Source of the DNA: Pyrinomonadaceae bacterium
Lineage (GTDB): Bacteria; Acidobacteriota; Blastocatellia; Pyrinomonadales; Pyrinomonadaceae
Reading direction: 5' to 3'
Assembly (NCBI GenBank): GCA_021228405.1
Contig: JAJQRF010000005.1
Coordinates: 297,565 to 361,564, forward strand
Length of the DNA: 64,000 nucleotides
Both the position numbers and the translations under genes were made by a program. The notes under the pieces are model-generated. The model had not been told where the DNA came from and ran no database searches. It saw nothing but the letters and a program-made list of their open reading frames with translations. This document shows, piece by piece, positions 46,507-63,908 of the stretch (its first letter is position 1; every line of letters starts with the position of its first letter).

Positions 46507-46578
46507 AATTAAAAATGCAAAATTAAAAATTAAAAATTTAACTGGTAACTTTGCATTTTACATTTTTAATTTTTTAAT
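46507..46578. repeat. Word-repeat hairpin between rplQ and rpoA
   Basis: ATGCAAAATTAAAAATTAAAAATT faces GCATTTTACATTTTTAATTTTTTAATT, an A/T-only version of the word hairpins. Confidence 0.8.
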
Positions 46579-47595
46579 TTAATCGATGTCTCTTCCGCCC
46601 GATCCGGGAATCGGATTGCCGTTTTCGTCAAAGTCCATACCGAAATCCAAGCCCATACCGTGAAGCAGGTCTTTGATTTCCGTCAAGGATTTCTTACCGA
46701 AGTTTTTCGTGCCGAGCATATCGCGTTCGCTGCGGCGAATCAGATCGCGGATCGAACGAATGTCGGCGTTTTTCAAACAGTTGTATGAACGAACCGAAAG
46801 TTCCAATTCGTCAACCGATTTGTCGAGCAAATCGTTGCGCATCAGCGGCGGACGTGCAATATCTTCGTATTTGTATTCTTCTTCTTCCTCTTCAAAATTG
46901 ATGAAGATCGACATATGATCTTTGACGAGCTTTGCCGCCAGACCGATCGAATCTTCCGGCGCAACCGAACCGTCCGTCCAAACTTCGATCGTCAACTTAT
47001 CATATTCGGTATTTGAACCCATACGGGTTTTTTCGACGTTATAATTGACCTTTTTGATCGGCGTATGAACCGAATCGATCGGAATGTAGCCGACCGAAAG
47101 GTCTTCGTCGTTATTAAATTCGGCTGAAACGTAACCGCGTCCGCGTTTCAAGCGCATTTCGACGTTTATTTCGCCGCCTGCGCTGATCGTCGCGATATGA
47201 ACGCTGTCGTCGAGAATTTCAACATCGCCGTCAGCTTCAATGTCCGCGCTGGTGACTTCACCCGCACCGCTTTTGCTGATCGTCAGCGTTTTAGCACCGC
47301 TGCTGTGCAGTTTGAAAGGAATCTGTTTCAGATTCAAAATGACATCGGTAGCATCTTCGACAACGCCTTTGATCGAAGAAAACTCGTGCTCGACACCTTC
47401 GATCTTAACCGCCGTCACTGCCGCTCCTTCGATTGAAGATAAAAGTGCGCGTCTGATCGAATTTCCGATGGTCGTTCCGAACCCGCGTTCAAAGGGTTGG
47501 GCGTAGAATTTTCCGTATCGCTCGGTCAAAGTTTCCGTTTCGACATTCAAGCGACTCGGCATTTGGAAATCTGTCCAATTATTACTTTGTGTCAT
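46579..47595 (-). CDS. rpoA: RNA polymerase alpha subunit
   Basis: 338 residues. N-terminal assembly domain (YGKFYAQPFERGFGTTIGNSIRRALLSSIEGAAVTAVKI) and C-terminal domain (LELSVRSYNCLKNADIRSIRDLIRRSERDML, GKKSLTEIKDLL). Dimerises to nucleate RNA polymerase. Between rpsD and rplQ as usual. Confidence 0.98.
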   Translation of the reverse strand: MTQSNNWTDFQMPSRLNVETETLTERYGKFYAQPFERGFGTTIGNSIRRALLSSIEGAAVTAVKIEGVEHEFSSIKGVVEDATDVILNLKQIPFKLHSSGAKTLTISKSGAGEVTSADIEADGDVEILDDSVHIATISAGGEINVEMRLKRGRGYVSAEFNNDEDLSVGYIPIDSVHTPIKKVNYNVEKTRMGSNTEYDKLTIEVWTDGSVAPEDSIGLAAKLVKDHMSIFINFEEEEEEYKYEDIARPPLMRNDLLDKSVDELELSVRSYNCLKNADIRSIRDLIRRSERDMLGTKNFGKKSLTEIKDLLHGMGLDFGMDFDENGNPIPGSGGRDID

Positions 47596-47604
47596 AATTT
47601 TATT

Positions 47605-47696
47605 TTAAAAAGGTTCTAAGTTCCAGATTTTAAGTTCGAGCCTGATAAAGTTGAAAACCAACTTTTCAAGCCGAAAATAAAATCTGGAACTTTAAT
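47605..47696. repeat. Word-repeat hairpin between rpoA and rpsD
   Basis: AAAAGGTTCTAAGTTCCAGATTTTAAGTTCG faces AAAATCTGGAACTTTAAT, with inner AAAGTTGAAAACCAACTTTTC. The repeated word is AAGTTCCAG/AAGTTCG. Confidence 0.85.
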
Positions 47697-47698
47697 AA

Positions 47699-48334
47699 TT
47701 ACTTGCTGTAAAGTTCGACGATTAACTGTTCGTTAATGGTTGCGTCAATATCTTCACGCTTCGGCAGAGCCGAAATTGTTATGCTCAAATCTTTATCGGT
47801 TGTCGAAATCCAATTCGGACGACCGCGTCCGACGGCTGTCTGCCACGCGCCTTCGACGTGCGTATTAGCTTGTGATTTGTCTTTTACGGTCACGACATCG
47901 CCTTGCTTAACCTGAAACGAAGGAATATTTACCTTCTTTCCATTTACAAAGATATGTCCGTGATTGACAAGCTGGCGAGCCTGACGGCGGGAAGTCGAAA
48001 AACCTGAACGATAAACTACGTTATCCAGACGGCGTTCGAGCATAAATAAAAGGTTTTCACCGGTTACGCCCTTTTGTCTTAAAGCTTTCTCGAAATAATT
48101 GCGGAATTGCTTTTCCAAAATAAAGTAAATGCGTTTTACTTTTTGCTTTTCTCTTAACTGTTGACCGTATCCCGCCAACACTTTGCGGCGGGCGGTTGCT
48201 CCGTGCATTCCCGGCGGTTGTGTTCCGCGTTTTTCGATCGCACACGACGGTTTGTAGCAACGGTCGCCTTTCAAAAATAATTTTCCACCTTCGCGGCGGC
48301 ACAAACGGCACACCGCATCTCTATATCTAGCCAT
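47699..48334 (-). CDS. rpsD: Ribosomal protein S4
   Basis: 211 residues from the ATG at 48332-48334 (MARYRDAVCRLCRREGGKLF). Cysteines in CRLC and KGDRCYKPSCAIEKR make this a zinc-binding S4. S4 RNA-binding domain (RRLDNVVYRSGFSTSRRQARQLVNHGHIFVNGKKV). Nucleates 30S assembly and can autoregulate its operon. Confidence 0.97.
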   Translation of the reverse strand: MARYRDAVCRLCRREGGKLFLKGDRCYKPSCAIEKRGTQPPGMHGATARRKVLAGYGQQLREKQKVKRIYFILEKQFRNYFEKALRQKGVTGENLLFMLERRLDNVVYRSGFSTSRRQARQLVNHGHIFVNGKKVNIPSFQVKQGDVVTVKDKSQANTHVEGAWQTAVGRGRPNWISTTDKDLSITISALPKREDIDATINEQLIVELYSK

Positions 48335-48359
48335 AATGTTTTTTGCTTCCGCAAAAAAT

Positions 48360-48545
48360 GATTTCAAATTTCAAACTTCAAATTTCTTTAATCGAAAAAT
48401 AAGAAAATTAAAATTACTGCATCATTTTTTCGGAGAAGTTTACGGGAAATTATTTCATTTTCCCTTCTTCCTTTCGATAAATTAATTAAATTTTCAAAAC
48501 CGAGAGATTTGTAAATCCGAAATCCGGATTACCAAATCCCAAATA
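48360..48545. repeat. Word repeats in the rpsD-rpsK spacer
   Basis: The 214-nt spacer contains TTTCAAATTTCAAACTTCAAATTTC (48362-48386) with no clear partner. It also has a hairpin GAGATTTGTAAATCCGAAATCCGGATT / ACCAAATCCCAAAT (about 48505-48545) made of GATTT/AAATCC words. It also contains GGGAAATTATTTCATTTTCCC (48448-48468). Confidence 0.7.
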
Positions 48546-48548
48546 TTC

Positions 48549-62688: not shown

Positions 62689-62707
62689 AATTTTACTCCA
62701 ATTATAA

Positions 62708-62798
62708 GTCTTGGAAGTTTTGGAAGTTTTGGAAGTCAAGGAAGAAATTTACTTTTTCTTTCCGGACTTTCCACACTTTCCAGACTTTCCAGACTGCT
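62708..62798. repeat. Word-repeat hairpin between rplD and rplC
   Basis: AAGTCTTGGAAGTTTTGGAAGTTTTGGAAGTCAAGGAAG faces CTTTCCGGACTTTCCACACTTTCCAGACTTTCCAGACT. The word is TTGGAAGT, about four copies per arm. Confidence 0.93.
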
Positions 62799-63437
62799 TT
62801 AGCTTTTCTTAACTACAACCAAACTTCCATTTGCGCCCGGAACTGCACCTTTTACTAATAAAAGATTGTTCTCGGCATCAACTTTAGCAATCGTTAATCC
62901 TTTGACGGTAACACGTGCATCGCCCATATGTCCTGACGACTTCGTGCCTTTGATAACACGTGAAGGATAAGCGGACTGACCGATCGAACCCGGCGCGCGA
63001 ACCGACATCGAACCGTGCGATTCGGGACCTCTGTGAAACTTATGACGTTTGATCGTTCCCGCAAAACCGCGTCCTTTCGATTTACCGACGACTTCGATCT
63101 TGTCGCCGTCCGCAAAAACGTCAACCTTAACCTGATCGCCGATTGCCGCTTCCGGTTCGCCCTGCAAGCGAATTTCCTTCAATACACGGGTCGGAGGAAC
63201 GCCGCCGCCTGTTTTTTCAAAGTGTCCGCGCAATGGCTTGGTAACATTCTTGACTTTGATCGGTTTATCTTCGACCAATCCTAATTGCACCGCATTGTAA
63301 CCGTCGCGTCCGCTTGCACTTTTTGTTTGGACAACAACGCAAGGTCCTGCTTTGATAACGGTTACGGGTGTCACCGTGCCGTCTTCCGCAAAGATTTGCG
63401 TCATTCCAACTTTTCTACCAATGATTCCGCTAATCAT
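62799..63437 (-). CDS. rplC: Ribosomal protein L3
   Basis: 212 residues. ISGIIGRKVGMTQIFAEDGTVTPVTVI and KGRGFAGTIKRHKFHRGPESHGSMSVRAPGSIGQSAYPSRVIKG are conserved. Confidence 0.98.
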   Translation of the reverse strand: MISGIIGRKVGMTQIFAEDGTVTPVTVIKAGPCVVVQTKSASGRDGYNAVQLGLVEDKPIKVKNVTKPLRGHFEKTGGGVPPTRVLKEIRLQGEPEAAIGDQVKVDVFADGDKIEVVGKSKGRGFAGTIKRHKFHRGPESHGSMSVRAPGSIGQSAYPSRVIKGTKSSGHMGDARVTVKGLTIAKVDAENNLLLVKGAVPGANGSLVVVKKS

Positions 63438-63444
63438 CTTAATC

Positions 63445-63516
63445 TCCAGTAAAGAGTGGTAAATTTTGAGTGGAGAGAAGTAAAAAATTACTCACTGCCC
63501 GCTACTCGCTACTCCC
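63445..63516. repeat. Word-repeat hairpin between rplC and rpsJ
   Basis: AGAGTGGTAAATTTTGAGTGGAGAGAAGTAA faces TTACTCACTGCCCGCTACTCGCTACTCCC, a degenerate member of the AGTAGYG family at 48957. Confidence 0.85.
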
Positions 63517-63518
63517 AA

Positions 63519-63839
63519 CTAATTTTTGCCGAATGCTTTGATTTCAACATCAACGCCGGCGGGTAAATCCAATTTCATCAACGCATCGACCGTTTCAGCC
63601 GTCGGATCGAGAATGTCCATCAAACGCTTGTGGGTTCTGATTTCAAACTGTTCGCGCGATTTTTTATCAACGTGCGGCGAACGCAGAACCGTCCATTTGT
63701 TTTTGATGGTCGGAAGAGGAATCGGACCTGCAATGTTTGCGCCTGTTCTCTTTGCCGTTTCCACGATTTCCTGTGTCGATTGATCTAAAACACGATGGTC
63801 GTATGCTTTCAATTTGATGCGAATTTTTTCGTTTAACAT
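63519..63839 (-). CDS. rpsJ: Ribosomal protein S10
   Basis: 106 residues. KIRIKLKAYDHRVLDQSTQEIVETAKRTGANIAGPIPLPTIKNKWTVLRSPHVDKKSREQFEIRTHKRLMDI is typical. First gene after tuf in the S10 operon; also a transcription antitermination factor (NusE). Confidence 0.98.
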   Translation of the reverse strand: MLNEKIRIKLKAYDHRVLDQSTQEIVETAKRTGANIAGPIPLPTIKNKWTVLRSPHVDKKSREQFEIRTHKRLMDILDPTAETVDALMKLDLPAGVDVEIKAFGKN

Positions 63840-63847
63840 AAATACTG

Positions 63848-63908
63848 TCGGTTGCTCGTCGCTCGTTGTTCGTCGTTAATTCTTTAATCGACGACGAACA
63901 ACCAACAA
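63848..63908. repeat. Word-repeat hairpin between tuf and rpsJ
   Basis: GCTCGTCGCTCGTTGTTCGTCGTTAATT faces TTAATCGACGACGAACAACCAACAAC. Same GTTCGT word as 31901. Confidence 0.92.

Follow-up and report, generated by a model that had tools for sequence, protein, structure and literature searches.

The P6b stem of the tRNA-Leu(UAA) intron of Nostoc and Calothrix is composed of 7-nucleotide (nt) repeats of two classes, TDNGATT and NNTGAGT, the origin of which is stated to be unknown, and repeated replacement of the whole region is described in the consulted part of the same source (PMC4476775). The GC clusters of yeast mitochondria are short palindromes that spread, merge together and are exchanged, according to the portion of the source that was at hand (PMC4478555), and heptanucleotide repeats are reported to be generally abundant in the genomes of bacteria, a link to the polymerase having been suggested, as cited in the accessible part of PMC4679880. 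The Nostoc stem is the nearest known system to the subject of the present work, namely hairpins whose arms consist of tandem copies of a short word and which occupy the spacers of the ribosomal operon in a 64,000-nt stretch of DNA (here called the window) of a Pyrinomonadaceae bacterium of the class Blastocatellia, Acidobacteriota (GenBank assembly GCA_021228405.1, contig JAJQRF010000005.1, positions 297,565 to 361,564 of the forward strand). These hairpins were reported in an earlier note made from the sequence alone, and the observation is confirmed as real. It is proposed here, with about an even chance of being right, that they are interspersed palindromic DNA elements, mostly carrying a 7-nt family word and lying behind stop codons, whose sites tend to persist in the species compared and whose word is swapped wholesale, likely by the copying of palindromes within the genome.

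The genes from rplQ to rpsJ are all located on the minus strand, and the SecY protein encoded in the window shares up to 93% identity with its counterparts in Pyrinomonadaceae and other Blastocatellia. Using a detector which tolerates mismatches and gaps in the arms (a score of at least 36 being called strong), a strong hairpin was found in 10 of the 20 operon spacers of at least 45 nt, where dinucleotide shuffles lead one to expect 0.6, and an eleventh site 5' of rpsJ adds to those ten. Eight of the ten have arms with a 7-nt period and one, between rplC and rplD, has a 9-nt period; RNA folding of six operon spacers gave z values from -8.96 to -1.98. The number of at least ten word hairpins between rplQ and tuf, as given in the earlier note, is slightly high because only nine are clear (the rpsD-rpoA hairpin is not built of words and the one 5' of rpsJ is short). 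Its remark that the spacers are longer than usual is accurate, with an operon median of 66 nt against medians of 2-15 nt in 28 of 50 other Acidobacteriota loci and of 15 nt in the relative L019.

The hairpins are neither rare nor limited to the operon of one species. In 33 loci of Blastocatellia, strong hairpins were detected in 169 of 418 spacers (1.6 expected from shuffles), 128 of them being 7-periodic, and the best period, where significant, was 7 in 112, 14 in 17, 8 in 8 and 9 in 4 of the 169. When this set was enlarged to 62 loci, after removal of ten duplicates, the count rose to 350 of 945 spacers, with 262 of the 350 hairpins 7-periodic, and 11 of the 62 loci (some of them short, L019 and L145 included) have no strong hairpin. 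The 128 hairpins mentioned above use 75 consensus words, and toward the loop G is common and C scarce (0.258 vs 0.151). Placement is regular: the 169 hairpins start at a median of 4 nt past the stop codon and end 13 nt ahead of the next start. Integron attC sites, marked by R'/R'' core sites and an integrase, likewise follow stop codons and came into consideration for that reason alone. Across 704 kilobases (kb), made up of the window together with 400 kb sampled from the own genome and 240 kb from the relative G074, a strong hairpin of any kind is present in 80 of the 252 gaps between co-directional genes, in 43 of the 83 between convergent genes and in 4 of the 76 between divergent genes (the first two classes together 123/335 vs 4/76, Fisher p=5e-9), and 7-periodic hairpins in 28, 15 and 3 such gaps (p=0.026), all of which are rough counts because genes are simple long open-reading-frame calls. 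The density of 7-periodic hairpins is 65 per Mb in the 400 kb sample; the window has 156 per Mb and the sampled parts of G074 have 142. The elements, for which a genome-wide count was advised in the earlier note, thus occur throughout the genome. The statement that the hairpins lack T tails is right as a rule: among the 206 of 262 word hairpins that leave at least 8 nt of spacer, TTTT stands at or just past the 3' end in 19. The role of Rho-independent terminator was rejected on this count and on the location of the hairpins within the operon.

The words form families dispersed over the genome, and to this extent the mobile palindromic element suggested in the earlier note is borne out. The doublet ATTACGAATTACGA of the secY-adk hairpin has 19+19 matches in its own genome. 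The TCGTRAA family, with 106 exact arm matches of RAATCGTRAATCGTRAATAG in the relative G072, is matched in 12 of 40 relatives searched; 42 copies were read from 40 stretches (21 picked on both arms matching, the others on one), and most of them have the loop and the outer ends in common besides the word. Their arms vary chiefly at one base per unit, A or G, for which both arms have the same preference from outside inwards (mixed, G, A, G). In G096, the 40 longest listed alignments between TCGTRAA hairpins show a likeness of 67-85%, the sole row of 100% being one element entered twice; an identical 35-nt array is present at two other places of this genome, therefore close copies exist. Word similarity reached 0.65 or more in 24.1% of the pairs within a genome (223 of 927), in 14.4% of those at the same site (251 of 1748) and in 7.1% of all others (2230 of 31516); words are tied more closely to the genome than to the site. 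Identical words at the same sites in distant relatives had been named in the earlier note as a sign against its reading, and the same-site value, above the background and below that within genomes, goes part of the way in this direction.

Turnover at the same position with a different word, for which a comparison of close relatives had been recommended, was seen in several species pairs. L018 and L128 have 96.3% gene identity and 0.879 identity at 4-fold sites; the six spacers in which at least one of the two has a word hairpin are 0.14-0.90 identical and the ten others 0.86-1.0. Between L021 and L124 (94.7%) the words differ at rplW-rplB, rpsS-rplV, rplF-rplR, secY-adk and rpsM-rpsK, and spacers without words are also partly diverged (rpsK-rpsD 0.63, rplO-secY 0.73). 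A clean gain was found in L021, where the rpmJ-rpsM spacer is 87 nt long with a TCGTRAA hairpin and only 6-15 nt in the five relatives shown. Spacers of at least 45 nt in both species were then considered replaced at an identity below 0.7, and those with a word hairpin in either species were compared with those without a strong hairpin: at a 4-fold identity of about 0.9, 2/5 vs 0/10 were replaced, at about 0.8, 13/14 vs 2/31, at about 0.7, 30/48 vs 14/45, and at about 0.6, 12/12 vs 51/75, in which comparison the class defined by a word hairpin in either species is by definition biased toward replacement and species recur across pairs. Flanks were compared in eight close pairs, with values of 0.5 or less dropped as misaligned: the adjacent 60 nt are 0.937 identical beside replaced and 0.946 beside retained spacers, with 0.926 and 0.924 further out, and since the flanks are about equally conserved, the change is confined to the spacer. 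Changes of length occur in steps near multiples of 7 nt, once by +49 on both arms.

The sites themselves persist in the sole synteny block tested, which covers 60 kb of G074 in common with G072 and has 32 matched gaps. All seven word-hairpin gaps of G074 have a hairpin in G072, compared with 3 of 23 hairpin-less gaps (p=6e-5), and the outer word is common in 0/5 pairs with words on both sides, one of these pairs having related words (0.61) and one a common inner TCGTRAA hairpin. The closer pair G074/G073 gives two such pairs in 24 gaps, one of them with different words. Seventeen G074 elements were sought in G072: one flank was unfound, two places were coding-like, one gap was empty and 13 held another palindrome (by eye); the word differs in 12 of these 13 counterparts, at 7964 the words are related and at 3660 the outermost bases are common. 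The site at G074 23788 has three different words in G072, G073 and G074, and at G074 26684 a layered structure is present, with outer AGTGACR arms around a TCGTRAA hairpin, also in G073, where G072 has TCGTRAA alone. Among 14 gaps of at least 12 nt viewed as empty sites between G073 and G074, none was a clean family gain. It can be said that the shape is kept by place and the spelling is kept by genome.

According to the earlier note both arms match each other and must have been made or corrected together. The arms indeed share a word; they do not match unit by unit, and at 57592-57651 the mismatch recurs in every unit. Correction of one arm against the other should make the unit variants agree on both sides of the stem. 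The observed arm pairing is 0.838, and 0.818 with units shuffled between arms in the best register (p<=0.05 in 5.6% of 195 hairpins), and in 41 two-armed TCGTRAA copies the variable base is independent between arms (97/164 matching, 91.9 expected, p=0.19). If RNA were under selection, G.U mismatches should exceed A.C, and word hairpins have no such excess (224 vs 256), whereas the 88 other strong hairpins have 86 G.U vs 59 A.C (p=0.03). With neither unit-by-unit matches nor a G.U excess, co-correction of the arms is unsupported and an exchange of palindromes at the DNA level fits best. After correction by shuffling, the folding of the sense strand differs by +0.43 kcal in word-hairpin spacers (p=0.14) and by -0.6 in spacers with other hairpins (p=0.18), and the sole significant excess, -0.65 kcal (p=3e-5), belongs to spacers without a strong hairpin. 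Selection on word hairpins at the RNA level was rejected on the mismatch counts and because the raw sense excess of their spacers disappeared under this control, though the uncontrolled difference of the cores stayed. The function in RNA processing or stability considered in the earlier note thus has little support in word hairpins; two weak hints of it are the cores, which without shuffle control fold 1.19 kcal better in the sense strand (p=0.0025), and the changes of standard pairs in retained hairpins, 11 to G.U and 5 to A.C. As a whole the earlier interpretation is partly supported, in turnover, in the genome-wide set and in dispersed families, and not in the co-correction of arms.

A wholesale swap is pictured here as follows. 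The hairpin site itself would start the exchange by a break or a stalled fork at an extruded palindrome, the donor would be another palindrome from the same genome, and its sequence would be copied into the existing palindrome with 7-nt slippage afterwards. The two arms may be filled from different template units, which would explain a common word without common unit variants, and the RNA hairpin might be a generic, interchangeable feature of the spacer, so that any word would do. The sharpest version, in which Blastocatellia keep fixed hairpin docking sites behind stops that are rewritten whole from a genomic library of heptamer palindromes, each arm written separately, is offered only tentatively and is rather doubtful.

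Several points weigh against copying between palindromes of one genome. The table of persisting sites consists of 32 gaps in one block, and its comparison omits two gaps with hairpins not built of words (one kept, one lost). The analysis turned up no copying enzyme, and reading the gains and swaps by eye, which is not a systematic test, revealed no target duplication. Word hairpins are sometimes kept (3/5 at about 0.9 and 18/48 at about 0.7 4-fold identity), those retained between L124 and L110 being 0.92-0.97 identical vs 0.706 at 4-fold sites, and at about 0.6 most hairpin-less spacers are replaced too. In 16 retained comparisons the arms changed in 55/875 and the loops in 84/635, a constraint which a purely selfish element would not need; because the arms change less than the loops, some constraint acts once the element is in place, possibly on RNA. 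The sharing of words at the same site above background makes vertical descent a part of the picture, and the persistence of sites may be due to selection rather than to the hairpin as a target. Finally, import from another lineage also seems to occur, as suggested by the L018 rpsN-rpsH replacement, which resembles the L112 allele and not that of the sister L128.

A rival view is that selection keeps an RNA hairpin behind stops for the stability or processing of mRNA, any hairpin being adequate and words drifting and being replaced neutrally. It is consistent with the location behind stops (123/335 against 4/76 gaps), the conservation of arms over loops, the persistence of hairpin sites, the sense-folding excess in spacers without a strong hairpin together with the uncontrolled folding of the cores, and the G.U surplus of the other hairpins. 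Nevertheless it is somewhat improbable, for selection alone makes no 7-nt words and spreads no word over the genome, and word hairpins have neither a G.U excess nor a shuffle-corrected sense excess. Plain insertion of a family mobilised by a transposase, similar to miniature inverted-repeat transposable elements or REPINs, with loss of copies and reuse of sites by chance or target preference, would be compatible with many dispersed copies, most with common loop and ends, with the clean gain at rpmJ-rpsM and with the occurrence of Y1_Tnp matches in 22 of the 26 genomes (two of the other four, G058 and G019, were looked at, and their operons contain no strong hairpin). This is unlikely: it leaves a different word at the same site unexplained, G083, G088 and G099 lack a strong operon hairpin in spite of 5, 13 and 6 Y1_Tnp matches, G139 has seven hairpins and a single match, and the hairpins listed for 20 Y1_Tnp loci include none with a 7-nt period at z>=3.5, L183/L185 being the sole pair with a TCGTRAA array close by. 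A link to the RAYT transposases, suggested by Y1_Tnp genes near TCGTRAA arrays in G096 and G101, was dropped after these 20 loci. The Y1_Tnp (RAYT-type) genes of L177, L179, L182 and L193 are adjoined by palindromes without words that resemble repetitive extragenic palindromic (REP) sequences, e.g. GCCCAACGAGAATCGTTGGG.

Spacer alleles might also be imported from other lineages, homologous recombination taking place in the conserved genes on either side. The L018 rpsN-rpsH spacer speaks for this view, which is quite unlikely; no drop of identity was found in the 60 nt beside replaced spacers, a weak objection as donor alleles elsewhere were not systematically sought. Replication slippage and template switching at quasipalindromes, making or correcting the arms in place, agree with the length changes close to multiples of 7 nt, in one case the same in both arms, but conflict with arms that do not agree unit by unit, with the mismatch in every unit at 57592-57651 and with the same word at distant sites within one genome, and are disfavoured as very improbable. 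SbcCD was considered as a cutter of palindromes: a search for the SbcD family in 26 Blastocatellia genomes gave none above the curated cut-off and a weak match in 24, whether these are rich or poor in hairpins, and G009 and G140, which have no match, are rich in them. As the matches are unrelated to hairpin richness, SbcCD does not explain the pattern and was rejected.

Table 1. Hairpins and palindromes of the window, in positions of the 64,000-nt stretch
Feature	Position	Strand	Remark
rpoA-rplQ spacer hairpin	46506..46572	-	7-nt periodic, A/T-rich word AAAAATT
rpsD-rpoA spacer strong hairpin	47618..47692	-	arms without word periodicity
rpsK-rpsD spacer, rpsK end, palindrome with overlapping arms	48507..48544	-	ATCCGAA/GGGATTT-like units; weak
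rpsM-rpsK spacer hairpin	48952..49027	-	word AGTAGYG
secY-adk spacer hairpin	51421..51493	-	word AATTACG
rpmD-rplO spacer hairpin	53471..53552	-	TCGTRAA-type word
rpsE-rpmD spacer hairpin	53769..53841	-	word TCATTTA
rpsQ-rplN spacer hairpin	57592..57651	-	arms ATTTCGG and ATTTGGG, mismatch in every unit
rpsS-rplV spacer hairpin	60342..60412	-	ATTTCGG-type word
rplW-rplB spacer hairpin	61612..61682	-	degenerate ATTTGGG-type word
rplC-rplD spacer hairpin	62707..62795	-	9-nt word TTGGAAGTT
Short hairpin 5' of rpsJ	63865..63902	-	word GTTCGTC, weakly periodic
Similar hairpin outside the operon	31892..31976	.	word GTTCGTT
Heptamer-type hairpin outside the operon	29776..29836	.	found by the hairpin detector
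Hairpin outside the operon, 9-nt word	43486..43561	.	GGAAAGTCT type

In addition to the hairpins of Table 1, the window contains a second family of four alike hairpins with a 9-nt word (GCCCACGAAATACACGAAA ...) at 11067-11186, 13804-13908, 18548-18657 and 21802-21926, and hairpins like these are present in the sampled stretches of the own genome. In the rpsK-rpsD spacer (48335-48548, minus strand) a core TCGAAAGGANGAAGGG ... GTAAACTT recurs in the same spacer of the relatives displayed and is a candidate leader RNA of rpsD; Rfam 15 gave 16 matches over 43000-64000, a stretch which includes this core, and none of them is at its gathering score. The map-infA spacer (49788-49860) is 0.84-0.99 identical in the relative pairs listed, while neighbouring spacers swap, and is perhaps a promoter.

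In the 50 further Acidobacteriota loci the trait is patchy. Among them 14 have at least one 7-periodic spacer hairpin, 25 of the 28 with short median spacers have none, and L052, L061 and L082 have long spacers yet no 7-periodic hairpin. In L039-L044 and L047, most of them titled Acidobacteriaceae, many words include AGCT, which is itself palindromic. Pieces of 9-13 kb from contigs of a viral collection (L170, L171, L172) hold two to four 7-periodic hairpins each. In 150 kb of a Trichormus plasmid two 7-periodic hairpins were found (one each in L168 and L174, L173 having none), besides a small number of heptamer arrays, and 50 kb from a Calothrix plasmid contained a single 9-periodic hairpin; a blastn search of one window spacer against plasmids returned short matches only.

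Should whole hairpins be exchangeable at a fixed place, palindromes would have a way of evolving other than insertion or point mutation, and such an exchange, if true, could account for the unexplained swaps of word class in the Nostoc intron stem; the close species pairs used here allow a swap to be caught. The hairpins are also a warning that hairpins in operon spacers need not be regulatory RNA, even if many relatives have one in the same place. No published account of such hairpins in Acidobacteriota was found in searches which rarely named Acidobacteria and mostly did not cover subscription journals. The known systems, as far as the consulted parts of their descriptions go, resemble the present one in different respects. 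The Nostoc P6b stem has degenerate 7-nt repeats in both arms, as do 262 of 350 strong spacer hairpins here, and by our reading the window words TGGGATT and AGTGAGT fit its two motif classes; it is, however, a single stem of one tRNA-Leu group I intron, whereas the present hairpins stand in intergenic spacers behind stops across the genome and use 75 words (PMC4476775). Yeast mitochondrial GC clusters are likewise merged and exchanged, but in an organelle, and heptamer arms are not mentioned in the part of the source at hand (PMC4478555). REP sequences, BIMEs and REPINs with their RAYTs are similar in having many extragenic palindrome copies (PMC3116915, PMC2817692, PMC8266576); here, in contrast, the 20 RAYT-type loci are flanked by no listed 7-periodic hairpin at z>=3.5. 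The TAACTGA repeats of Beggiatoaceae are also intergenic heptamers in many copies, but in the accessible portion of their description they are direct repeats of a single word upstream of genes, with one inverted case (PMC4679880). Compared with these known relatives, the present hairpins are distinct in their scale, the number of their words and the persistence of their sites.

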